Source of the DNA: Asticcacaulis solisilvae
Lineage (GTDB): Bacteria; Pseudomonadota; Alphaproteobacteria; Caulobacterales; Caulobacteraceae
DNA: 64,000 nt
NCBI RefSeq assembly: GCF_017875235.1
Contig: NZ_JAGGMI010000001.1
Coordinates: 186,001-250,000, forward strand
Direction: 5' to 3'
Below, piece after piece: positions 21,915 through 38,663 of this stretch (within the stretch, counting starts at the first letter, position 1; each line of letters opens with the position of its first letter). The notes beneath the pieces are model-generated. The model was given only the letters and a program-made list of their open reading frames with translations. It did no database searches and was not told where the DNA came from. The position numbers and the translations under genes are program-made.

Positions 21915-22835
21915 CTAGGCGACCGGCTGCGACAGCTTGTCGGCCAGGTCCGACGCCTGCTTCAGTTGGTCCTCGGTCAGTTCCCTGTCCTGCTCCATAG
22001 TGCGCACGAGGTCGCGCGCATCCGGATCGCCGCCATCGGCCGCCAGCAGCGCCCAGGCATAGGCCGCGACCTTGTCGACCGGCTGGCCCTCGCCGCGGTA
22101 GGCGAACGCCGCCATGTTGAGCTGCGCCAAGGCCAGGCCCTGACGCGCCGCAGTCTCGATCAGGGCGCGCCCCTTCTGGAGGTCCTTGGCCACGCCCTGG
22201 CCGTGGACATACATGCGGCCGAGGTTGAAGCGCGCCGGCGGACTGTCCTGGGCGGCGGCCTTTTCGTACCAGTAAACGGCCTGGGCGAAGTCCTGCGGCG
22301 CGCCCTCGCCCGTCTCGTACATATTGCCGACATTGAACTGGGCGACATCGTAACCGGCTTCGGCGGCCTTCTTGTACCACTCGAACGCCTTGGCCAGGTC
22401 CTTCGGCACGCCCAGCCCGTTGTCGTAGGCGGCGCCGATATTGTACATCGCCTCGACGCTGCCGAGGCCGGCGGCCTTCAGGCTCCACTCACGCGCCTTG
22501 TCGTAATTCTGCTCGGTGCCCAGGCCTTTGGCGTACATCACGCCCAGCTCGGCCATGGCCTCGATATTGCCCGACGCGGCGGCGCGGGAATACCATTCGA
22601 AAGCCTTTTCGAAATCCTGTTCGACGCCGTTACCCAGGTAATAGTCGTCGGCCAGCCGCAGCTGCGCCTTGGCGTCACCGGCGTCGGCGGCACGGCGCAC
22701 GGCCGCAATATCGCTCGTTTCGGCGGCGATGGCCTGCTGGTTGATGCGGGCATCGGTCGCCGACCACACGGGGCTGGCCGTCAGCATCAGCGCCGCCAAA
22801 GCGGCAGTCAGTTTCAGCAGTCTGGCGATGACCAT
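21915..22835 (-). CDS. Exported Sel1-repeat protein
   Basis: The 306-residue protein has a signal peptide ending SPVWSA and then about six consecutive Sel1 (TPR-like) repeats, each with a core like A-F-E-W-Y-x-K-A-A-x-x-G (for example FEWYSRAAASGNIEAMAELG). Sel1 solenoids act as protein-interaction scaffolds; in Caulobacterales some organise polar or envelope complexes. No enzymatic motif is seen. It converges with the DAO-like gene, with seven bases between their stop codons. Confidence 0.9.
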   Translation of the reverse strand: MVIARLLKLTAALAALMLTASPVWSATDARINQQAIAAETSDIAAVRRAADAGDAKAQLRLADDYYLGNGVEQDFEKAFEWYSRAAASGNIEAMAELGVMYAKGLGTEQNYDKAREWSLKAAGLGSVEAMYNIGAAYDNGLGVPKDLAKAFEWYKKAAEAGYDVAQFNVGNMYETGEGAPQDFAQAVYWYEKAAAQDSPPARFNLGRMYVHGQGVAKDLQKGRALIETAARQGLALAQLNMAAFAYRGEGQPVDKVAAYAWALLAADGGDPDARDLVRTMEQDRELTEDQLKQASDLADKLSQPVA

Positions 22836-25543: not shown

Positions 25544-26407
25544 ATGTCAATCGACCTGACCTCACCTTCGGTGGCTGTCCCACTTCTCTTTTTCGTCTTG
25601 CTGTGTGTTGCCTTGCTGGTCGTGATTATCCTGATGATCCAGGACCTGACCAGCGACGGCCTGAAATACTCGAAACCCTTGAATCTATACCGGCGGACGC
25701 GGCGCAAGGCGCGCAACGGCGACGCCAAGGCCTGTATCGCCGTTGCGGACATGCTGGAGAAGGGCACTGGCGGCGCACCTCATAACTATAATCTCGCCAG
25801 CTATTATCTTCATGAGGCTGCGTCGATCCTGGCCACGAAGGCACGTCAGGGCGATGGCTATGCAGCGCTGAAACTGGCAGAGATCTGCAATCACGGTTTT
25901 ACCTTTCCACACATGTCGAAGATGGGCGACAAGGCCTATCGCGCGGCGCTGGCGATCAATGAGGCCAATGCCCGTCATGGCGATATCAACGGCATGGCCT
26001 ATGCCGGTTACCAATACCGTTACGGACTGGGCTGCATCAGCGATTTCGACCGGGCGGCGGAGTATCTGGCGCCCGCGGCCGAGCGCGGCCACCCGTGGGC
26101 GGCGAAGTGCCTCGCGGAACTGCATCTCAACGGCCTGAAGCCCAGGCCCGATCCGGTGACGGCGGCGAAGCTGGTGCGGCAGGCGGCATTGCAGGGTGAC
26201 ACAGAGGCCATCGAGCGCGTCGGCGACAACTACCTGACCAATACGGGTGAGCTGCGCAGCCGCGAGCAAGCCTATTTCTGGTACGCCCTGGCCGCCCGCA
26301 AAGGCCGGCGCGACGCGATGCGCAAGTTGGAAAAACTGGAACAGTCGTGGACGCCAAAGCAGTTGCGCGAGTTGCAGGCGGAGTTGCAGAGCTGGGTACC
26401 AGCTTAA
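25544..26407 (+). CDS. Membrane-anchored Sel1-repeat protein
   Basis: The 287-residue protein begins with one transmembrane anchor (about residues 10-32, PLLFFVLLCVALLVVIILMI) and then carries degenerate Sel1 repeats (for example DAKACIAVADMLEKGTGG and SDFDRAAEYLAPAAERGHPW). It is a probable scaffold with a cytosolic or periplasmic solenoid. Sequence directly after the stop codon enters a series of strong hairpins. Confidence 0.8.
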   Translation: MSIDLTSPSVAVPLLFFVLLCVALLVVIILMIQDLTSDGLKYSKPLNLYRRTRRKARNGDAKACIAVADMLEKGTGGAPHNYNLASYYLHEAASILATKARQGDGYAALKLAEICNHGFTFPHMSKMGDKAYRAALAINEANARHGDINGMAYAGYQYRYGLGCISDFDRAAEYLAPAAERGHPWAAKCLAELHLNGLKPRPDPVTAAKLVRQAALQGDTEAIERVGDNYLTNTGELRSREQAYFWYALAARKGRRDAMRKLEKLEQSWTPKQLRELQAELQSWVPA

Positions 26408-28136: not shown

Positions 28137-29024
28137 TTACCGCTTGTGACTGGCCAACCACGCATCGGCGCGTTTTTCGCCCTCGGCGATCTGCGCCGCC
28201 GACAACTGGGGCTTCAGGAAATTGATCGCCGTCACCGCGTCCTTGTCTCCGGACTTCTGCGCGATCACCGCCCATTTGTAAGCTTCAGCGCCATCCTTGG
28301 CTGTCCCCTTCCCGGCGAAGAAGCAAAAGCTGTAAGACCGTTGCGCGCCGGTGATGCCGCCTTCGGCCGCTTTGGCGAAATAGCCGAACGCCTTATTGAC
28401 GTCGCGATTGGGGGTATAGGGACTGTAGTAGTAATCTCCCAGCATTTCCGTGGCTTCGAGCGATCCGGCCGCGTCCGCCTTCTTCAACCATTCCAGCGCC
28501 TCGGCGTCCTTGCCCTCCCGGAACAGGCGGGCCGCCAGCAGGCCATGCGCCGGCAGGTCGCCCTTTTCCGCCGCCTTGCGGAACCATTCGGTCGCCGGTC
28601 GGTCGTCGGGCGCCAGCGAGCCCCGGCCGATCTGGTGGCAGAGGCCGATATTGCGCATGCCTTCGGCATTGCCCTTTCTGGCCGCCTCTTCGTACCAGTG
28701 GCAGGCGGCATCGCCGTCGCGTTTAGCCGACGATGTGTTGTAAGTGTCGCCCAGCGTCATCATCGCCGGCACATAGCCGTTCTTCGCTGACTTCTCGAAC
28801 CAGACACGTGCCTTTTCCGGGCTGGCGGTCATGGAAGTGTTCTTCAGTTCCTTCTGGCCGAACTGGTACTGCAACTCGGCGTCGCCCATCTCGGCGCGCG
28901 CATAATCGACGAGGCTGTTGTGGCCCGTCTTCCAGTCCTGGGCGATGGCAAACACGCCACCACCAACCACGATGACGGCAGCCGCGCCGACGACTACGGC
29001 ACCGCTGCCTGATTTCTTTTTCAT
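28137..29024 (-). CDS. Membrane-anchored Sel1-repeat protein
   Basis: The 295-residue protein has an N-terminal anchor or uncleaved signal (about 9-28, AVVVGAAAVIVVGGGVFAIA) and several Sel1 repeats (EKARVWFEKSAKNGYVPAMMTLG, ATEWFRKAAEKGDLPAHGLLA, KAFGYFAKAAEGGITGAQRSY). It is a likely periplasmic scaffold. It is one of four Sel1 proteins in this window and lies between a chemoreceptor and the transglutaminase cluster, all leftward. Confidence 0.88.
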   Translation of the reverse strand: MKKKSGSGAVVVGAAAVIVVGGGVFAIAQDWKTGHNSLVDYARAEMGDAELQYQFGQKELKNTSMTASPEKARVWFEKSAKNGYVPAMMTLGDTYNTSSAKRDGDAACHWYEEAARKGNAEGMRNIGLCHQIGRGSLAPDDRPATEWFRKAAEKGDLPAHGLLAARLFREGKDAEALEWLKKADAAGSLEATEMLGDYYYSPYTPNRDVNKAFGYFAKAAEGGITGAQRSYSFCFFAGKGTAKDGAEAYKWAVIAQKSGDKDAVTAINFLKPQLSAAQIAEGEKRADAWLASHKR

Positions 29025-29074: not shown

Positions 29075-32000
29075 CTACACTGGGCGTCTGAGGTCGAGCG
29101 TGTGCGGGTAGTCGGGGTTGACGTGTAATGCCGGAATGCGCACGCGGCCCGCCGTGTGGGTCGGGGCTTCGAACCGCGAAAGCCTCCGGCCTTCCGCCTC
29201 ATTGGCATTGAGCGGCAGGGTCTCGTAATTGCGCCCGCCCGGATGCATGACGTGGTAGCGGCAGCCCCCAAGCGACCGTTCAAGCCGCGTATCCAGCACG
29301 TCGAAGATAAGCGGCGTATTTATAGGCAGGTTCGGATGCAGCGACGACCACGGCTTCCAGGCCTTGTAACGGACGCCCGCGACCTGGACATTGGCGTCGC
29401 GCGTCGCCGTCAGCGGCAGGCGATAGCCATTGCAGGTCACTACGTGCTGTGACGTCACGCCGCCCAGCAACCGCACCTCCATGCGTTCGACCGACGAATC
29501 GACCCCGCGCGACGTGCCGCCGCCCGACGGCTCCTCGCCCATGACTGGCCAGGGTTCGAGGGCGTTTTTCAGTTCCAGGGTCAGGCCGCCGATCTGGACC
29601 GTGCCGACCGTCGGAAAACGGAAGTCGAAGAAGGGAATGAACCAGTCGGGGCTGAAGCGATAGCCGTTCTGCGACAGGAACTCGATGACCTCAAGCATGT
29701 CTTCGCGCACAAAATGCCCCAGCATGAAGCGGTCGTGCAGCGACGTCCCCCACCGCACCATCGGCGCCTTGTACGGCTTCTTCCAGAAGACGGCGACGAG
29801 CGCGCGCAGCAAAAGCGCCTGGATCAGGTTCATCTGCGGGTGCGGCGACATCTCGAAGCCGCGCATTTCCAGCAGGCCCAGCCGGCCGCGATCGCTGTCG
29901 GGCGAATAGAGCTTGTCGATGCAGAATTCGGCGCGGTGGGTATTGCCGCTGAGATCGACCAGCAGGTTGCGCAACAGGCGGTCGACCAGCCACGGCGCCG
30001 ACTCTTCATCGCCGTGCGGCAGGTGCTTCAGGGCGATTTCCAGCTCATATAGCGACTCGTGGCGCGCCTCGTCGATGCGCGGCGCCTGCGAGGTTGGCCC
30101 GATATAGAGGCCGGAAAACAGATAGGACAGGCTGGGGTGGTTCTGCCAGAAGGCGATCATCGACCCCAGCACGTCTGGCCGGCGCAGGAAAGGAGAGTCC
30201 TCGGGCTTTGCGGCGCCCATGACAATGTGGTTGCCGCCGCCGGTGCCGACGCGCTTGCCGTCGATCATGAATTTGTCGGCGACCAGCCGCGCCTGGCGGG
30301 CTTCGTCATAGACGGTGTTGACGATGGACTTGAGTTCGTCCCAGTTGGCGGCCGGCTGGATATTGACCTCGATGACGCCGGGATCCGGGGTGACCGACAT
30401 CGATACGATGCGATGGTCGCGCGGCGGCGAATAGCCTTCGATGATGACCGGGGTTTTGAGATGCGCGGCCGTGGCTTCGATGGCGTGGATCAGGTCGAGA
30501 TAGTGTTCGACATAGGACAGCGGCGGCAGGAACAGGAACAGCTTGCCGTCGCGGACTTCGGCGCAGAGGGCACTACGGACCAAACCATTTGGACCATCTT
30601 CGCCCTCCCTGCTCTGCGGGGAGGGGGGACCATCGCTTGCGATGGTGGGCGGGGTGCCTTTGGCTCCGTCCTTTAAAGCCCCGCCCACCGCTTCGCGGTC
30701 CCCCCTCCCCATAAATGGGGAGGGCGAAGTAAGGACCTTCCCGTATCTTTTGATCGCTTCTTCAGCATCCGTCAGAGCCTCCGTCTCCGCAAACGGCGAG
30801 CGGTCCGGCACGTAATGCGCCTCAGCCAGCTTCGGATCGACAAACGGCAGGGCGCCCAGCGGCAGACGCAGACCAATCGGCGAATTGCCCGGCAAGAGCA
30901 TCATCTTGTCGGTGCGGAATGTCCATGTGTTCGAGAGCCAGCCGTGCGTCTTGCCCGAAAAGGTCAGCGGCAGGACATAGCCCGTCGCCTCGCCGACATT
31001 GGTATCCAACTGATCCTGAAGCCGCTTGCGCTCGGTCGCCTCATAGATATCAGCCTTGAGCATCTCGCCTTCGAGCGGGATGCGCTGCTCCTTCCAAAGC
31101 AGGTACGGAATGTCCTCGTAAGCGCCGATGACGTGCTCCCCACCGACACCCAGGGCGTCCGCGAGCGTCCGCAAGAAGTCACCAGCGACATCGCGCTTCA
31201 GTCCGGCCTTGGCTTCCGGATCGGCCAGCAGGGCCTGATCGAGCCACACAGGTTCCCCATCCTTGCGCCAGTACATATTCATCGCCCAGCGCGGCAGGAT
31301 TTCGCCCGGATACCACTTGCCCTGTGCATGCTGGGCCAGTGCCCCATTTGCGAATTTCGCCGACAGGCGCTGGAACAGGTCGTAACCCAGCTTCTTTTTC
31401 TCGTCGGACAGCGCCGTGAAATGCCACTCGTCGCCGGTCCGGTCATCGAGCGACACAAAGGTCGGCTCGCCGCCCATGGTCAGGCGGACGTCCTGCGCGG
31501 TCAGGGCCTCGTCGACCTTGTGGCCCAGCGCATCGATCCGCTCCCATTCCTTGTCGGTATAGGGCCGGGTGACGCGGCGACTCTCATATATGCGCGTCAC
31601 CTCCATCTTGTGATCGAAGGTCGTGTCAGCGCGTTCATGCGTGCCGGTAATCGCCGCCGCCGAGGTCGGATGCGGCGCGCAGCACAAAGGAATATGCCCT
31701 TCGCCCGTGAACATGCCCGAAGTCGGATCGAGCCCGATCCAGCCGGCGCCCGGCAGATAAACCTCATACCAGGCGTGCAAATCAGTGACGTCTTCGCTGA
31801 CGCCCGACGGCCCGTCGAGCGATTCGACATCCGCCTTGAGCTGGATGGAATAGCCAGAGACGAATCGCACCGCCAACCCCTTGTGACGGAGCACCTGACA
31901 GGCCAGCCAGGCCATGTCGCGGCACGATCCCGTCAGCTTTTGCAAGGTCTGGGTCGCCGTCTGGACACCTGGCTCATAGCGCAGGGTGTAGCCGATATCG

Positions 32001-32461
32001 CGATTGAGCTTCTGGTTGAAGGCGACCAGAAAATCGACGGTGCCAGCCTCTTCGTCGGAAATGGAGCGGACATAGTCCATGACCAGCGGATCGTCGTCCT
32101 TGAGCTCAAGATAGGGTGCCAGTTCGTCCTTCAGTTCTTCGGTATAGGCGAACGGGAACTTCGTGGCCGAATCTTCCAGGAAGAAGTCGAACGGATTGAA
32201 GACCTTGATTTCCAGCACCAGGTCGACCTCGACCTTGAAGTGCGTCACCTTTTCCGGAAAGACCACCCGCGCCAGCCAGTTGCCGAACGGGTCCTGCTGC
32301 CAGTTGATAAAGTGCGGCTCCGGCGACACCTTTAGCGCATAGGACTGGACGTGCGCCCGGGTATGCGGTGCGGGACGCAGGCGGATGACCTGCGGGTTCA
32401 GGCTGATCGGACGGTCGTAGCGGTAGTCGGTGACGTGATGCAGCGCAGCCAGAATGGTCAT
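29075..32461 (-). CDS. Transglutaminase-DUF2126 protein
   Basis: The 1,128-residue protein starts with a bacterial transglutaminase N domain (HHVTDYRYDRPISLNPQVIRLRP) and a transglutaminase/protease core having the Cys in GSCRDMAWL, His in DLHAWYEV and Asp in LDPTSG. The rest is DUF2126, with HIVMGAAKPEDSPFLRRPD and NTHRAEFCIDKLYSPDS. Proteins of this architecture accompany circularly permuted ATP-grasp and alpha-E genes, as here. Residues ~578-622 (SPSPFMGRG...SREGED) are encoded by a 132-bp palindromic repeat inserted in frame and are absent from the family pattern. Activity is unproven; peptide amide cleavage or transfer is inferred from the Cys-His-Asp core. Confidence 0.93.
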   Translation of the reverse strand: MTILAALHHVTDYRYDRPISLNPQVIRLRPAPHTRAHVQSYALKVSPEPHFINWQQDPFGNWLARVVFPEKVTHFKVEVDLVLEIKVFNPFDFFLEDSATKFPFAYTEELKDELAPYLELKDDDPLVMDYVRSISDEEAGTVDFLVAFNQKLNRDIGYTLRYEPGVQTATQTLQKLTGSCRDMAWLACQVLRHKGLAVRFVSGYSIQLKADVESLDGPSGVSEDVTDLHAWYEVYLPGAGWIGLDPTSGMFTGEGHIPLCCAPHPTSAAAITGTHERADTTFDHKMEVTRIYESRRVTRPYTDKEWERIDALGHKVDEALTAQDVRLTMGGEPTFVSLDDRTGDEWHFTALSDEKKKLGYDLFQRLSAKFANGALAQHAQGKWYPGEILPRWAMNMYWRKDGEPVWLDQALLADPEAKAGLKRDVAGDFLRTLADALGVGGEHVIGAYEDIPYLLWKEQRIPLEGEMLKADIYEATERKRLQDQLDTNVGEATGYVLPLTFSGKTHGWLSNTWTFRTDKMMLLPGNSPIGLRLPLGALPFVDPKLAEAHYVPDRSPFAETEALTDAEEAIKRYGKVLTSPSPFMGRGDREAVGGALKDGAKGTPPTIASDGPPSPQSREGEDGPNGLVRSALCAEVRDGKLFLFLPPLSYVEHYLDLIHAIEATAAHLKTPVIIEGYSPPRDHRIVSMSVTPDPGVIEVNIQPAANWDELKSIVNTVYDEARQARLVADKFMIDGKRVGTGGGNHIVMGAAKPEDSPFLRRPDVLGSMIAFWQNHPSLSYLFSGLYIGPTSQAPRIDEARHESLYELEIALKHLPHGDEESAPWLVDRLLRNLLVDLSGNTHRAEFCIDKLYSPDSDRGRLGLLEMRGFEMSPHPQMNLIQALLLRALVAVFWKKPYKAPMVRWGTSLHDRFMLGHFVREDMLEVIEFLSQNGYRFSPDWFIPFFDFRFPTVGTVQIGGLTLELKNALEPWPVMGEEPSGGGTSRGVDSSVERMEVRLLGGVTSQHVVTCNGYRLPLTATRDANVQVAGVRYKAWKPWSSLHPNLPINTPLIFDVLDTRLERSLGGCRYHVMHPGGRNYETLPLNANEAEGRRLSRFEAPTHTAGRVRIPALHVNPDYPHTLDLRRPV
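30598..30729 (-). repeat. 132-bp palindromic repeat inserted in frame in a gene
   Basis: The element is bounded by 12-base inverted ends CTTCGCCCTCCC and GGGAGGGCGAAG and contains internal hairpins (CCATTTATGGGG type and ACCATCGC/GCGATGGT). It is exactly 44 codons long with no stop in the host frame. A 201-bp relative with the same ends lies at 36088-36288. Confidence 0.85.
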
Positions 32462-32572
32462 GGACTTCGAACTAATCCCTCGTGTTCAGTGACTGCATTG
32501 TCCGCGGGACTTTTTTAAGTGACGGCCCCTGTTACGGAAACGCAAAAAAAGTGTAACCTTCCTGTAACGGGG

Positions 32573-32613
32573 ACTAGACAACTCCCCGATAAGAAAGTCT
32601 AGTTGCATTGCAA
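32573..32613 (+). promoter_or_regulatory. Palindromes in the divergent promoter region
   Basis: ACTAGAC-N17-GTCTAGT (32573-32603) and the overlapping TTGCATTGCAA (32603-32613) lie immediately before the Shine-Dalgarno AAAGAGG of the amidotransferase-transglutaminase gene. Their position suits an operator governing the rightward transcript. No regulator is identified. Confidence 0.45.
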
Positions 32614-32629
32614 TAAAGAGGTCGTTTTT

Positions 32630-34543
32630 GTGAGCGCCATTTCGAGTGACATTTTGGCCTTTTCCTTCGACGGCTTGAGTTCGCCGGCGATCGACCTCAA
32701 ATTCCGCAAGGGACCGCAAAAGGGCGAGCATACCCTGGGCTGGGGCCTGGCCTGGTATCCGGCCGACAATAAGGCGGCCATCGTCGCCAAGGACCCGTCG
32801 GCGCGCGACACGCAATCCCTGCGCGGCGCCATGGAAGACTGGGACGCCTTCCGCTCGACGGTCTTCTTCTGCAAGGTGCGCGGCGCGGCCTCGGGCTACA
32901 CCCACCTCGAAACCCAACCCTTCTCACGCAGCTTTGCCGGTCAGGACTGGCTGTTCATGCACAATGGCGATCTCGACAAGATGGCCATGAAGAAGCTGCA
33001 CTTCAACAAGTCGATCTTCCTCGAGCCCATGGGCCGCACCGATTCGGAACTGGCCTTCTGCTTCCTGCTCGGCAAGATCCAGGACTATGGCGCCCGCACC
33101 CTGGCCGATGTCGATCACCAAATCCTCTTGTCGTGGTTCCTGCAGCTGGACGACATGGGCTCGGCCGACATGGTCATTTCGGACGGCACGACCGTCGCCG
33201 CCTTCTATGGCTCGCAGTCGGAAACCCACCTCTATTACAACCGCATCAGCCCACCCCATTCCGCCGGCGGCTTCGAAGCCGATGCGGCCTCCTTCACCGT
33301 CGACAATCCGCGCGACACCTTCCGCACCGCGCTCGTCTTCTCCTCGGCGCCGTTCCGCCAGGGCGACTGGAAGCCGATGCAGAAGGGTCAACTTATCATT
33401 GCTCGTCGCGGCCAGGTCGCCTGGACCAACAAGAAGGATGCGCCGAAACTCCAGCCCCAGCAGATCGTCCACGAGAAGGACGGCCACCTGCAAGGTGTGG
33501 TCGTACCGCCGTCTGTGTCACGCGGCCTGACGGGCCGTCCGTTCGCCGATCAGCAGGCCCAGGCTCAGCAACTCTCCATCCTGCAGTCGCTGCAGCAGAT
33601 GAAGAATGTCCAGCACAATGTCCTGAATGTGCGTTCGCTGACCCATACGCCGGATGGCTCGCCCCTCACCTATCGTCTTTACGACGTCGTCCATTCGACC
33701 GAGTACGAGTACGAGAACGAGGTCGAGCACTCGACGCACAGCTTCCGTCTGATGCCCGTCGAGGATTCGGGCCAGGAAGTGCTGAATTCGACGCTCAGCC
33801 TGTCGTCCGAAGGCGAATCGATGCGCTTCGAGGATGTGTTCGGCAACCAGACCATCCACTATTCGATCATCAAGCCGTACAAGAAGCTGGTCGTGTCGTG
33901 CCGTTCGCTGGTCAAGATCTTCGGCCAGCCCATCGACGACATGTCGCAGGACAAGCGCCAGCCCTTCCTCCCACTGACCATGATGCCGTGGCAGCAGGTT
34001 ATGATGGAGCCCTATCTGCGCTCGCCGGAACTGCCCGAAACGCAGATTCGCGAACTGATGGTCTATGCCATGAGCTTCGCCGAGCGCAATGCGCGCCACC
34101 TGATGGACACGCTCAACGACATCAATCTCAGCATCTATCGCGACTTCCGCTATGTGCCGGGCGCGACGACGGTGAAGTCGACGCCATTCGACGTCTATGC
34201 CATGCGCGAGGGCGTCTGCCAGGATTTCGCCAACCTGTTCATCTGTCTGGCGCGCCTGCTGGGTGTGCCGGCGCGCTACCGCGTGGGTTACATCTTCACC
34301 GGCGCCAATTACGAAAACAAGATTCAGTCCGACGCCTCGCATGCATGGGTGGAAATCTACATCCCCTATCTCGGCTGGCGCGGCTTCGATCCGACCAACG
34401 GTTGCCGCGTGACGCAGGACCACGTCCGCGTCGCCGCCGGCCGCAACTACCTCGACGCAACGCCCACGGCGGGGACCATATACAGGGGCGGAGGCAAGGA
34501 AACGCTGCGGGTTCAGGTCACGATGAACGAGGTTTTCCAATAA
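32630..34543 (+). CDS. Class II amidotransferase-like domain fused to transglutaminase
   Basis: GTG at 32630 (AAAGAGG eight bases upstream) gives 637 residues. Residues ~1-260 match glutamine amidotransferase type 2 (NTN-hydrolase fold): GWGLAWYPADN, LETQPFSR, FMHNGDLD, GRTDSELAF. The usual catalytic Cys2 is absent; the second residue is Ser. After a linker, residues ~365-637 form a transglutaminase with N domain (YRLYDVVHSTEYEYENEVEH) and core residues Cys in GVCQDFANL, His in SHAWVEI and Asp in GFDPTNG. It is the first gene of a rightward cluster with the ATP-grasp and alpha-E genes. Confidence 0.88.
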   Translation: MSAISSDILAFSFDGLSSPAIDLKFRKGPQKGEHTLGWGLAWYPADNKAAIVAKDPSARDTQSLRGAMEDWDAFRSTVFFCKVRGAASGYTHLETQPFSRSFAGQDWLFMHNGDLDKMAMKKLHFNKSIFLEPMGRTDSELAFCFLLGKIQDYGARTLADVDHQILLSWFLQLDDMGSADMVISDGTTVAAFYGSQSETHLYYNRISPPHSAGGFEADAASFTVDNPRDTFRTALVFSSAPFRQGDWKPMQKGQLIIARRGQVAWTNKKDAPKLQPQQIVHEKDGHLQGVVVPPSVSRGLTGRPFADQQAQAQQLSILQSLQQMKNVQHNVLNVRSLTHTPDGSPLTYRLYDVVHSTEYEYENEVEHSTHSFRLMPVEDSGQEVLNSTLSLSSEGESMRFEDVFGNQTIHYSIIKPYKKLVVSCRSLVKIFGQPIDDMSQDKRQPFLPLTMMPWQQVMMEPYLRSPELPETQIRELMVYAMSFAERNARHLMDTLNDINLSIYRDFRYVPGATTVKSTPFDVYAMREGVCQDFANLFICLARLLGVPARYRVGYIFTGANYENKIQSDASHAWVEIYIPYLGWRGFDPTNGCRVTQDHVRVAAGRNYLDATPTAGTIYRGGGKETLRVQVTMNEVFQ

Positions 34544-34573
34544 TCTAACCATAACCCAACGAAGGGGCTGTTC

Positions 34574-36025
34574 TTGGCGCTTGAGAGTTATAAGGTTGAC
34601 GGGTTTTACGACGAATTGTTCCGCAAGGACGGTGTGGCGCACGCGGCTGCGCAGCCGCTGATCGAGCAGATAGACAAGCTCACTCGTAACGAACTGAAGC
34701 GCCGGCAGAAACAGGCCGAGGACATCCTTTACCAGTCGGGCAATACCTTCAACGTCTACGGCGACAAGAAGGGCACCGAGAAGATCCTGCCCTTCGACAT
34801 CATCCCGCGCATGGTGTCGGCGAAGGACTGGGCCAAGCTGGAACGCGGCATCGCCCAGCGTATTCAAGCCCTGAACCTGTTCATCCAGGACATTTATAAC
34901 GACCAGAAGATCCTGAAAGACGGCGTCATACCGGCCGAGATGATCTTCTCGTCGCAATGCTATCTGAAACCCTGCGAAGGCCTGTCGCCGCCGAAAGGCG
35001 TGTGGACGCACATTTCGGGCACTGATTTCGTGCGCGACTCCGACGGCGAATTCTATGTGCTCGAAGACAATCTGCGCTGTCCGTCGGGCATTTCCTATGT
35101 GCTGGAAAACCGCGCCGTGCTGAAGCGCATCCTGCCCACAGCCTTCCAGACCATGAAGGTCCGCCCGGTCAGCGACTATGGCGACCATCTCTACCGGACG
35201 CTCAAGCACATCGCGCCCAACGGCAAGGACGATCCCAACATCATCGTGCTGACGCCTGGCATCTACAATTCGGCCTATTTCGAACACGCCTACCTGGCGC
35301 AACAGATGGGCGTGGCGCTGGCGCAGGGCTCCGACCTCGTGGTCGAGGACGACAAGGTCTATATGCGCACCACCGCCGGCCTGCATCAGGTCGACGTCAT
35401 CTATCGCCGCATCGACGACGAGTTCATCGATCCGGAGATTTTCCGGCCCGATTCGCTGCTGGGTATCCCCGGCCTCATGCGCTGCTATCGCAAGGGTACG
35501 GTGGCATTGGCGAATGCACCTGGCACCGGCATCGCCGACGACAAGGCCATCTATGCCTATGTGCCCAAGATCGTGAAATACTATCTCGGTGAAGAGGCGA
35601 TCGCCCAGAACGTCCGCACCTATATCTGCGAGGACGATGCAGACCGCAAATACGTGCTGGAAAACCTCGACAAGCTGGTGGTCAAGGCCGTCAACCTGTC
35701 GGGCGGCTACGGCATGCTGATCGGGCCCAAGAGCACAAAGGCCGAGCAGAAGGAATTCGCTGCCAAGATCAAGGCCAGGCCGCGCGACTATATCGCCCAG
35801 CCGACCTTGTCGCTGTCGCGCTGCCCGACGCTTTGCGGCAACGGCATCGAAGGCCGCCACGTCGATTTCCGCCCCTATTCGCTCTATGGCGAGGAGATCT
35901 TCACCCTGCCGGGCGGCCTGACGCGCGTGGCGCTGAAGAAGGGCTCGCTGGTCGTCAACTCCTCCCAGGGCGGCGGCTCGAAGGACACCTGGGTGATCGG
36001 CGAAGATGGAGTCGCGAATGTTTAA
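34574..36025 (+). CDS. Circularly permuted ATP-grasp ligase (type 2, DUF404/DUF407)
   Basis: TTG at 34574, with GAAGGGG upstream, gives 483 residues. The family signatures are [14 protein letters not shown] at the start, [37 protein letters not shown] and [16 protein letters not shown] in the nucleotide site. Members are predicted carboxylate-amine ligases that may form peptide or amide bonds; none of the clustered substrates is established. It follows the transglutaminase fusion by 30 bases and precedes the alpha-E gene, separated by a palindromic repeat. Confidence 0.93.
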
Positions 36026-36087
36026 ACACAGCGCACCTTCCCTTCACTCAGCTTTAGTACAGCAGGCCCTTTGCAATGATGCCCCCT

Positions 36088-36288
36088 CTTCGCCCTCCCC
36101 ATTTATGGGGAGGGGGGACCGCAGCTTGCTGCGGTGGGCGGGGCTAACCGTCAGAGCCGTAATAATTGCTATCGAAACTTGGGGAACAGGGGTCAGCCCC
36201 GCCCACCATCTGCTCCGCAGATGGTCCCCATCGCTCGCGAAAGCTATACTTTCGCTACCGCTCTGCCCCGCAAGCAGGGAGGGCGAAG
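36088..36288 (+). repeat. 201-bp palindromic repeat between ATP-grasp and alpha-E genes
   Basis: It has the same 12-base ends (CTTCGCCCTCCC/GGGAGGGCGAAG) and first hairpins as the copy at 30598-30729. Its orientation relative to the flanking genes' transcription is also the same, but it has an extra central segment. It fills nearly the whole gap and ends 19 bases before the alpha-E start. In RNA it would form several strong stems that could uncouple expression of the two genes. Confidence 0.85.
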
Positions 36289-36307
36289 TTCGCCTGGATT
36301 TCTGCCA

Positions 36308-37240
36308 ATGCTGAGCCGTGTCGCCAACTCGATCTATTGGATGTCGCGCTATCTCGAACGCGCCGACAATGTCGCCCGCTTTATCGACGTCAACTTCCAC
36401 CTGATGCTCGACATGAGCCTCTCGAAGGACGAAACCCAGTGGTATCCCGTCATCGCCACTTCCGGCGACGACGAGGATTTCAACAAGCGCTACCAGGTCG
36501 CCGACGAACGCACGGTCGTCAAGTTCCTCACCTTCGACGACAAGAACCCCAACTCCATCCTGCAATGCATCTACCGGGCGCGTGAAAACGCCCGCACGGT
36601 GCGCGAGATCATACCGGTCGAGATGTGGGAAAAGATCAACGAGTTGTATCACCTGACCCAGGCGCACAGCCGCAAACGGTCCCTGGCCGACCTCTACGAC
36701 TACTACCGCGAGGTCCGCATGGCCGGCCACCTGTTCACCGGCCTGATGTACAACACGATGAGCCGCTATTCCGGCTGGCAGTTCGCCCATATGGGCCAGA
36801 TGCTGGAACGCGCCGACAAGACGGCCCGGCTGCTTGACGTCAAATACTTCATCCTCTTGCCGCATGGCGAAGTCATCGACAGCGCCTATGACGCCGTCCA
36901 GTGGGGCGCCGTGCTGAAGTCGGTCAATGCGCTGGAAATGTACCGCCAGCAGTACCACAGCATCAATTACCGCGACGTCACGGCTTTTTTGCTGTTCAGC
37001 AAGGCCTTCCCGCGGTCGGTGATCCACTGCCTCGACCGCGTTGCCAGCGCGCTGAAAAGTCTTGATGGTCACGGTCAGTCCAACAAGGCCGAAACCGAAA
37101 TGGCCGTGCTGACGCAAAAGATTCACGGCTCCGACGCTGCGCACATCATCGCCAGCGGCCTGCACGAGTTCATCGATGTCTTCCAGTACAATCTGAACCT
37201 GGTCGACGAGGCGATCTACGAGACCTATTTCAAGGTATAG
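36308..37240 (+). CDS. Alpha-E domain protein (DUF403)
   Basis: ATG at 36308 begins the family's typical MLSRVANSIYWMSRYLERADNVARF; frames extended upstream run through the repeat and are not real. The 310-residue, all-helical protein is the constant partner of type 2 circularly permuted ATP-grasp enzymes. The conserved helices (GRYSGWQFAHMGQMLERADKTARLLDVKY) may form an enzyme-associated bundle. Function unknown, but co-occurrence is so strong that a shared reaction or complex is generally assumed. Confidence 0.93.
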   Translation: MLSRVANSIYWMSRYLERADNVARFIDVNFHLMLDMSLSKDETQWYPVIATSGDDEDFNKRYQVADERTVVKFLTFDDKNPNSILQCIYRARENARTVREIIPVEMWEKINELYHLTQAHSRKRSLADLYDYYREVRMAGHLFTGLMYNTMSRYSGWQFAHMGQMLERADKTARLLDVKYFILLPHGEVIDSAYDAVQWGAVLKSVNALEMYRQQYHSINYRDVTAFLLFSKAFPRSVIHCLDRVASALKSLDGHGQSNKAETEMAVLTQKIHGSDAAHIIASGLHEFIDVFQYNLNLVDEAIYETYFKV

Positions 37241-37421: not shown

Positions 37422-38663
37422 ATGGGTGCGGACGAACGTAACGGACGAAACGAGGGGCGCGGCCAGGCGGCCAGGCCTCACGGCTTAGGGGACGCCCTGT
37501 CCGGCACCAATCTCGAACGCGCCGGCGACCACAATCAGCGTGTGACCCTGCAGGCCGTCCGCGCCGCCGTCGAGCCCATCACCCGCGCCGAGATTGCCGA
37601 ACTGACCGGGCTGACCGCGCCGGCCATCGCCAACATCACCAAGCGCCTCCTTAATGACGGCATGATCCTGAAGGCCGGACGGCACCTCGGCGGCCGTGGC
37701 CAGCCGGCGACCAAGCTGGTCGTTAATCCCGACGGCGCCTTCTCCATCGGCCTTAACATCGATCGTGACCACATCGGCATCGTGGCGCTCGACTTCCTCG
37801 GCAATGTGCGCGCGCGGGAATGCCGCGAAGTCCATTTCGCCATGCCGGAGGACGTCATCGCCTTCTTCCGCACCGAAGTCGACAAGATCATCGCGTCGCG
37901 CGCCATCGATATCGACCGGCTGATCGGAATCGGCGTGGCGATTCCGAACGATTTGGGCCGCGTGCCGGTCGCCAACCGGCCCGACGCCTACGAGATCTGG
38001 TCCGAAATCGACGTCGCCGGGATGTTCAGCGAAATCCTGCCGGTGCCGGTGATTGTCGAAAACGACGCAGCCGCGGCGGCCATCGGCGAAATGCAGTTCG
38101 GCCATGGGCTTCAGTACCGCAGCTTTGTCTACACCATCATGTGCGCGGGACTCGGTGGCGGCGTCGTCATTGACGGCCATTATTATCGCGGCGCCGATGG
38201 CATGTCCGGGGAAATCGGCTATTTGCCCGTTCGCGACGAAGCCGGCGAAACGCGCAGCCTGGAAGAGGTCGTCTCCCTCTATTCGCTTTATGACTACTTG
38301 CGTAAATCCGGAATTGAGGTCTCCACACCTGAAGATCTCGAAAGGCTGCCGCCAGCGGCCCTGGTGCGTGTCAACGCCTGGATGGACCGCGCTGCCGACC
38401 ACCTCTTCCAGCCCTTCCTGGTCATGAATTGCGCGCTGAACCCTGAAGCCTTCTTTATCGGCGGCCGGTTGCCTTCAGAGCTTATCGAACAGCTGTGCAC
38501 GCGGCTCAACCAGCGCCTGGGCACACAGGCCAACCGTATCCATAACCTGGCGCCGGTCCGGCGCGCCGATCTGGCCGTCGATGCGGCGGCGCGCGGCGCG
38601 GGCATCCTGCCCTTCAACGACCGCTTCCTGCCGATCCGGCAGGCACTGATGAAGACGAATTAA
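37422..38663 (+). CDS. ROK-family transcriptional regulator
   Basis: The 413-residue protein has an N-terminal winged helix (PITRAEIAELTGLTAPAIANITKRL) and a ROK (NagC/XylR-type) sugar-kinase-like domain with VIVENDAAAAAIGEMQFG and CAGLGGGVVIDG. ROK repressors bind sugars or phosphosugars and control catabolic genes, but no sugar genes are adjacent, so the effector is unknown. GGGAGGGG precedes the start. A short GTG frame (31 codons, 37326-37421) ends exactly at this ATG and might be a leader peptide. Confidence 0.92.
   Translation: MGADERNGRNEGRGQAARPHGLGDALSGTNLERAGDHNQRVTLQAVRAAVEPITRAEIAELTGLTAPAIANITKRLLNDGMILKAGRHLGGRGQPATKLVVNPDGAFSIGLNIDRDHIGIVALDFLGNVRARECREVHFAMPEDVIAFFRTEVDKIIASRAIDIDRLIGIGVAIPNDLGRVPVANRPDAYEIWSEIDVAGMFSEILPVPVIVENDAAAAAIGEMQFGHGLQYRSFVYTIMCAGLGGGVVIDGHYYRGADGMSGEIGYLPVRDEAGETRSLEEVVSLYSLYDYLRKSGIEVSTPEDLERLPPAALVRVNAWMDRAADHLFQPFLVMNCALNPEAFFIGGRLPSELIEQLCTRLNQRLGTQANRIHNLAPVRRADLAVDAAARGAGILPFNDRFLPIRQALMKTN

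Follow-up and report, generated by a model that had tools for sequence, protein, structure and literature searches.

The gene systems that most closely resemble the locus described here, a divergent four-gene module in a 64,000-nucleotide stretch of the Asticcacaulis solisilvae genome (contig NZ_JAGGMI010000001.1, positions 186,001 to 250,000; hereafter the window), are the amidoligase systems and the Anbu operons. The amidoligase tagging system that Iyer et al. (2009) predicted reportedly combines a permuted ATP-grasp enzyme, a permuted glutamine-synthetase-like ligase, an N-terminal nucleophile (NTN) hydrolase and an alpha-helical domain, and it has its permuted ATP-grasp, NTN and alpha-helical parts in common with the window locus. 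In the available portions of two reports (PMC6376114, PMC5666114), the Anbu operon likewise brings together genes for a permuted ATP-grasp, an Alpha-E protein and a transglutaminase with an NTN fold; the window locus differs from that operon in being without Anbu, in having an NTN fold of the class II glutamine amidotransferase (GATase) type that is fused to a transglutaminase, and in the addition of DUF2126. The same portions state that the ATP-grasp protein of the Y. bercovieri Anbu operon frees phosphate from ATP (PMC6376114) and that Anbu reportedly increases when nitrogen is limiting (PMC6376114, PMC5666114). They also place sets of this kind among those predicted to make or modify peptides, as the first-pass annotation of this DNA had proposed for the window locus.

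The module is a distinct subtype of the known amidoligase/Anbu-type system. The points that are new are the change from Cys to Ser at the nucleophile position of its GATase domain, the single grouping of the subtype in gene trees and the layout that it has in common with Anbu loci. At a probability of roughly 0.42, we read the module as an amide-ligation and trimming set in which a Ser-type NTN amidase is predicted to be fused to a Cys-type transglutaminase. A literature search of partial coverage found no description of a GATase-transglutaminase fusion and no function for DUF2126.

Genes and domains of the module

The divergent cluster of four genes named in the first-pass annotation is borne out by coordinates and domains. 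All four are open frames (29075-32461 on the minus strand; 32603-34543, 34574-36025 and 36134-37240 on the plus strand), with the transcription of gene A diverging from that of B-C-D, and the domain calls are Pfam matches far above the cut-offs in all four proteins (DUF2126 in A, 1215 bits; GATase_4 in B, 157 bits; CP_ATPgrasp_2 and CP_ATPgrasp_1 in C, 556 and 494 bits; Alpha-E in D, 320 bits). The host genome, an Asticcacaulis assembly of 5.0 Mb in 34 contigs, is 99.98% complete. The features of the module are:

29075..32461, minus strand: gene A, a Bact_transglu_N region, a transglutaminase core (C180, H229, D245) and DUF2126 (Pfam; triad alignment)
29087..31633, minus strand: DUF2126 domain of gene A (Pfam; AlphaFold model; Foldseek with weak scores)
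32615..32621, plus strand: likely ribosome-binding sequence of gene B, AAAGAGG (sequence)
32630..34543, plus strand: gene B, a class II GATase-like NTN domain and a transglutaminase, 637 aa, probable GTG start (Pfam; comparison of start sites and relatives)
32645..32647, plus strand: Ser6 codon (AGT) of gene B, at the position of the GATase Cys nucleophile (alignments; Pfam profile register)
32648..33463, plus strand: GATase_4 match of gene B, residues 7-278, with H111-N112-G113 and T137-D138-S139-E140 kept (Pfam; alignment)
33680..33913, plus strand: Bact_transglu_N region of gene B, residues 351-428 (Pfam)
34103..34393, plus strand: transglutaminase core of gene B, residues 492-588, with C530, H571 and D587 (Pfam; alignment)
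34574..36025, plus strand: gene C, a circularly permuted ATP-grasp near the solved structure 3n6x (Pfam; structure match, E 6e-164)
36308..37240, plus strand: gene D, an Alpha-E protein of 310 aa (Pfam)

The most likely start of gene B, judged from the sequence, is the GTG at 32630 with AAAGAGG ahead of it. It is favoured over a TTG at 32603, which would begin the protein with Met-His-Cys, because the extra residues are not conserved; Cys3 of that longer form sits in a stretch that relatives do not keep. Gene D was called an Alpha-E protein from the outset, and the call holds with a corrected start, since the protein beginning at ATG 36308 covers positions 1-294 of the 294 in the Alpha-E model. 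The circularly permuted ATP-grasp assigned to gene C is likewise upheld by its Pfam matches and by an alignment with 3n6x that extends over 464 residues.

Both transglutaminase cores of the earlier annotation, in A and in B, keep Cys-His-Asp. The triad of gene A has identical letters in 23 of 23 aligned rows, which stand for 20 distinct A genes: L105 repeats L061 and L111 repeats L076, each being counted once, and the row of L106, which has no DUF2126 nearby and probably matched through gene B's own core, is left out. The triad of gene B is kept in 18 of 18 rows, and GATase_4, Bact_transglu_N and Transglut_core were matched in all 13 aligned gene B members.

DUF2126 was predicted earlier to be a rearranged (permuted) glutamine-synthetase-like ligase. 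When an AlphaFold model of the domain (852 aa, 15 sequences, predicted local distance difference test, pLDDT, 74.7) was compared with known structures by Foldseek, 48 of the 50 listed neighbours were glutamine synthetases or the related gamma-glutamylmethylamide synthetases, the other two being a predicted glutathione synthase and an antibody; the best E was 2.8e-3 (probability 0.99), none reached 0.001 or below, and the template modelling (TM) scores were low. At these weak scores DUF2126 looks like a glutamine-synthetase-like ligase by fold, and the model fits the earlier prediction but does not show the permutation. Because such a domain lies beside an ATP-grasp, the module probably holds two ligases.

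Some irregularities of gene A and its relatives may be recorded here. A palindromic repeat lies in frame inside gene A at 30585-30725, where a 181-nucleotide stretch folds at -107.6 kcal/mol (z -6.85); the gene is ~35 residues longer than its counterpart in L061, and the repeat falls inside it. A related repeat lies between genes C and D (36084-36145 and 36266-36288), and of the repeat's 81 genomic matches many represent both strands of one place. In another Asticcacaulis genome (G153, contig C1, 1782216-1784658) DUF2126 was matched in two abutting frames, reflecting either a split gene or an assembly error.

A serine in place of the GATase cysteine

The NTN-fold amidotransferase domain of the first-pass annotation is present as an NTN/GATase fold fused to a transglutaminase, but its class II Cys nucleophile is replaced by Ser. 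The best matches of gene B in a fold search were 1te5 (TM-score 0.80 by target length), 3isr, 3mdn and EgtC (4zfk), and its score with the NCBIfam EgtC model is 39.8 bits, far below the cut-off of 218.65. Gene B has the fold and most of the active-site motifs in common with standalone class II GATases (PF13230; 1te5) and with EgtC, whereas it differs from them in having Ser for Cys2, TQPF for NTHPF, a fused transglutaminase and, in most members, an N-terminal extension.

Ser occupies the Cys2 nucleophile position in 18 of 18 aligned fusions. Ser6, D7, H111, G113, T137, D138 and S139 are invariant among them, and N112 is kept in 17, with Asp in the remaining one. The Asn-Gly pair and D138, which from their roles in class II GATases we take to be the oxyanion hole and a substrate residue, are largely intact. 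Of the 18 rows, 16 write Ser6 as AGT or AGC and two as TCC; no single base change leads from AGY to TCC, so that Ser has been kept or restored through two. Because its NTN domain has Ser instead of Cys, gene B is not a normal glutamine amidotransferase.

The register of this comparison was examined in two ways. Each of three MAFFT modes places the Cys of all 13 standalone GATases on Ser6 of gene B. The 13 came from 15 loci, two of which (L123 and L126) were dropped for not fitting a Met-Cys plus H-N-G pattern, so the selection itself ensures a Cys in every one of them. The fusions had also been trimmed to leave no more than five residues ahead of the Ser, a trimming that makes an end-to-end alignment more likely, and the comparison is therefore a test of the register only. 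In the untrimmed Pfam register, the host's own GATase aligns 1 to 1 with the profile, with Cys2 at position 2, and a fusion from a Nitrospinia metagenome-assembled genome (MAG; locus L077) does the same with Ser2 at position 2. The residue after the Ser stands at profile position 3 in the gene B of the window and in L072, L080 and L068, and the second residue after it at position 4 in L110. The N-terminal ends of the proteins vary: in L077 the first start after an in-frame stop, behind AGGAG, gives Met-Ser, and the other fusions have at least five residues before the Ser when counted from the nearest start, the preceding two being Ile or Leu followed by Ser, Thr or Asn.

Estimates of dN/dS in nine pairs ranged from 0.008 to 0.12 for the GATase domain, from 0.006 to 0.16 for the transglutaminase part and from 0.05 to 0.43 for the linker, these being simple Nei-Gojobori counts from a custom script with dS near or above 2 in the pair L074-L075 and ~1 in some others. 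The GATase domain is thus being maintained and is not decaying, under purifying selection similar to that on the transglutaminase part; purifying selection alone cannot tell catalysis from binding in this domain.

Relation to the Anbu loci

DUF2126 occurs in 27 of 200 genomes of the order. When linkage was judged from contig coordinates (GATase-transglutaminase within a few kb of DUF2126, Anbu within 7 kb), four of these genomes had a linked GATase-transglutaminase, eight a linked Anbu (G196, G200, G224, G229, G312, G317, G333 and G347), 14 neither and none both, the locus of one (G340) being fragmented; no Anbu lies beside DUF2126 in the mapped GATase-type loci. Seven of the eight Anbu-DUF2126 loci consist of transglutaminase-DUF2126 and then a divergent ATP-grasp, Alpha-E and Anbu; in the eighth (L112), ATP-grasp and Alpha-E were not seen on the map. 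GATase-type and Anbu-type DUF2126 loci have a similar divergent layout. Five of the 14 genomes with neither NTN gene linked were mapped, and all five have transglutaminase-DUF2126, a permuted ATP-grasp and a separate transglutaminase. The DUF2126 loci L081-L085 and L118-L121 have these same three components, as does the window, and Alpha-E was seen within the ATP-grasp frame in seven of the nine, whereas they gave no match to the GATase part of gene B or to Anbu; in the tree, ATP-grasps of this kind are separated from all the rest (100/100).

The first-pass annotation had the NTN-transglutaminase fusion standing instead of Anbu. This describes the locus itself, but a strict replacement at the genome level had to be rejected, as G215 and G341 carry a GATase-transglutaminase locus together with Anbu elsewhere (an ATP-grasp and the Anbu gene ~3 kb apart, away from the GATase-transglutaminase locus), and just over half of the DUF2126 genomes have neither NTN type linked. 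The host (G000) gave no Anbu match in its genome and none in window positions 20001-46000; its one proteasome-family match has an HslV-like score and lies on a different contig. Nor was Anbu found in the five genomes behind L072, L074, L075, L077 and L078, in a search that had no internal positive control but used a query that matched 96 of the 200 genomes of the order. G155, an assembly with 4 percent contamination, has a second, weak Anbu-like match near a contig end.

In trees with midpoint roots only, the GATase-type rows, including the Nitrospinia MAG, fall on one side of a branch for the ATP-grasp (10 of 33 rows, 100/97), DUF2126 (11 of 28, 100/100) and Alpha-E (10 of 24, 85/77). The Anbu-DUF2126 loci group together in the DUF2126 tree (8 rows, 100/100), with less support in the ATP-grasp and Alpha-E trees. 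Because its members group in three gene trees, the GATase type looks like an old, co-inherited subtype.

Distribution and variants of the module

Every one of the 25 Asticcacaulis genomes has gene B and 24 have DUF2126, from which it follows that the module is not a chance arrangement. Among the 36 remaining genomes in the relatives set, one (G184) has a full-length gene B, and across the 200 genomes of the order strong matches were obtained in four (the host G000, G184, G215 and G341). A class-wide draw gave a full-length gene B in the host only and in none of 141 other genomes, and a draw across the phylum gave a strong match to the Nitrospinia GATase half in the host only, the 397 other genomes yielding just weak, standalone-like GATase matches. 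Named contigs with the fusion also come from Alphaproteobacteria MAGs, Algimonas arctica and the one Nitrospinia MAG (a contig of 676 kb), in a scan with a single query that finds close relatives only and so sets a lower bound on the distribution. L078, from a Thermoanaerobaculia MAG, shows the transglutaminase half only, at a contig end that cuts into the gene.

The four genes are neighbours in the window, as they are in every one of the 12 named Asticcacaulis contigs, and the same four are present in L072, L074, L075 and L080, and, in a different order, in L077. L110 and L076 (Algimonas, with L111 as a repeat of L076) have A and B only; the sole ATP-grasp match in the genomes of these two is 51-54% identical and lies on another contig, ~3 kb from Anbu. 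A comparison of 15 loci revealed no fifth gene, in that no frame of at least 100 aa outside A-D was common to more than two lineages; those common to two or fewer were a chemoreceptor family, pairs from two related MAGs and a ligase-like frame of L076 and L110. The small-frame clusters listed for the same loci as candidate precursor peptides overlapped other genes, and a scan for promoters and terminators gave no signal above chance.

Proposed function and alternative explanations

In the mechanism that we propose, two ATP-using ligases, the permuted ATP-grasp of gene C and the glutamine-synthetase-like DUF2126 part of gene A, would join an amino acid or short peptide to an acceptor through an amide or isopeptide bond, with Alpha-E (gene D) as a possible partner or carrier. 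Gene B would contribute two further centres, the Cys-His-Asp transglutaminase and an NTN centre with Ser6 as its nucleophile, freed by the loss of a short N-terminal stretch; removal of Met might expose Ser2 in the Nitrospinia form, and self-cleavage before the Ser might do so in the other fusions. The NTN centre may then remove or transfer a glutamyl-type amide, the presumed job of Anbu in the sister loci; a target of this type is suggested because EgtC hydrolyses a gamma-glutamyl amide. Given the two probable ligases and the pair of additional centres that would act on amides, an amide-linked product might be both made and trimmed, and the cycle of peptide bond formation and cleavage envisaged in the first-pass annotation may be of this kind. 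A bolder version, which we consider doubtful, is that the class II GATase fold has become a self-freeing Ser NTN hydrolase, fused to a transglutaminase, that takes Anbu's place in a two-ligase module of at least two phyla, the second phylum being represented by one MAG contig (Nitrospinia).

Several observations weigh against the proposal of ligation and trimming. We know of no activity for any member of the GATase-transglutaminase subtype. The AlphaFold model of gene B is poor (pLDDT 53) and too weak for active-site geometry. An hhalign comparison of the gene B profile with the host GATase begins at residue 10 and leaves the nucleophile strand unaligned; its pairing of FSFDGL with FSFSAL, by which the nucleophile strand would be missing, is less likely, as the three MAFFT modes and the Pfam coordinates of six fusions agree on Ser for Cys. 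The pocket also drifts: position 84, presumably part of the glutamine pocket, is Arg in 9 of 13 rows, Lys in L072, L074 and L075 and Ile in L077, the last being the row in which N112 has become Asp. In place of the NTHPF of normal GATases the fusions have TQPF. Nor is the gene set constant. The Asticcacaulis genome G145 (L106) keeps B, C and D, with DUF2126 found neither at the locus nor in the genome, and G215 and G341 have A and B but lack C and D next to them. The failure of GATase-transglutaminase and Anbu to co-occur carries little weight, since placements of 4 and 8 among 26 would give it at random with a chance of ~1/5 and the loci counted are related and represent few independent events. 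As for the comparison with Anbu, the available text of PMC6376114 reports that Anbu proteins showed no peptidase or amidase activity towards any substrate tried, nor did Anbu interact specifically with its operon partners.

The main rival, which we hold to be a serious possibility though less likely than not, is that the GATase-like domain is catalytically dead and that its fold and amide pocket serve the transglutaminase as a substrate-binding or scaffold part. In its favour, Cys is absent from every aligned row, Arg84 and in one row Asn112 drift, and most members begin with additional residues that would have to be cut off before an NTN centre could work. Against it, the substitute is always Ser, across Asticcacaulis, other Alphaproteobacteria and the Nitrospinia MAG and across codon boxes, and Ser is an NTN nucleophile in other families too; H-N-G and T-D-S largely stay, and the Nitrospinia form begins Met-Ser. 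Purifying selection as strong as that on the transglutaminase part also speaks against decay, although a binding domain would show the same. It is quite unlikely that gene B instead works as an ordinary glutaminase, supplying the ligases with ammonia in the manner of class II amidotransferases. The GATase_4 family match and the best fold match, 1te5, which is a predicted glutamine amidotransferase, agree with such a role, but the catalytic Cys is consistently Ser, NTHPF is changed, the fusion partner is a transglutaminase and not a synthase, and the host has a separate, normal Cys-type GATase. There is finally a small chance that the set is a mere variant of the Anbu/amidoligase operon, an ordinary locus in which the fused domain is non-essential, as might be supposed from the 14 DUF2126 genomes with neither NTN type linked and from the otherwise similar genes of the five that were mapped. 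Against this, the versions of the partner genes that accompany the fusion group together, the fusion is restricted in the class and phylum draws as noted above, and its GATase domain is under purifying selection.

Genes near the module

A ROK-family regulator gene follows Alpha-E at 37422-38663; of the 12 named Asticcacaulis contigs, 7 carry a relative downstream, and none was observed at module loci outside the genus. Three Sel1-repeat genes lie near the module on its other side (21915-22835, 25544-26407 and 28137-29024). The segment 38791-42018 encodes an NrsF-type anti-sigma protein, a sigma-70-family factor, a small DUF2282 protein, an MNIO bufferin maturase (matched above the NCBIfam cut-off) and a DUF2063 protein, and looks like a bufferin-type locus for ribosomally synthesized and post-translationally modified peptides with its own sigma/anti-sigma pair.

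Implications

The natural part-sets of the module, G145 with no DUF2126 and G215 and G341 with A and B alone, hint at which of the genes can work apart. An enzyme with two predicted nucleophiles, in a locus that lacks Anbu, would offer a second route into the Anbu/amidoligase systems. The predicted Ser and the predicted Cys nucleophiles of gene B can each be labelled, trapped and mutated separately. If Ser6 is active, gene B would represent a natural switch from Cys to Ser in a class II amidotransferase fold.

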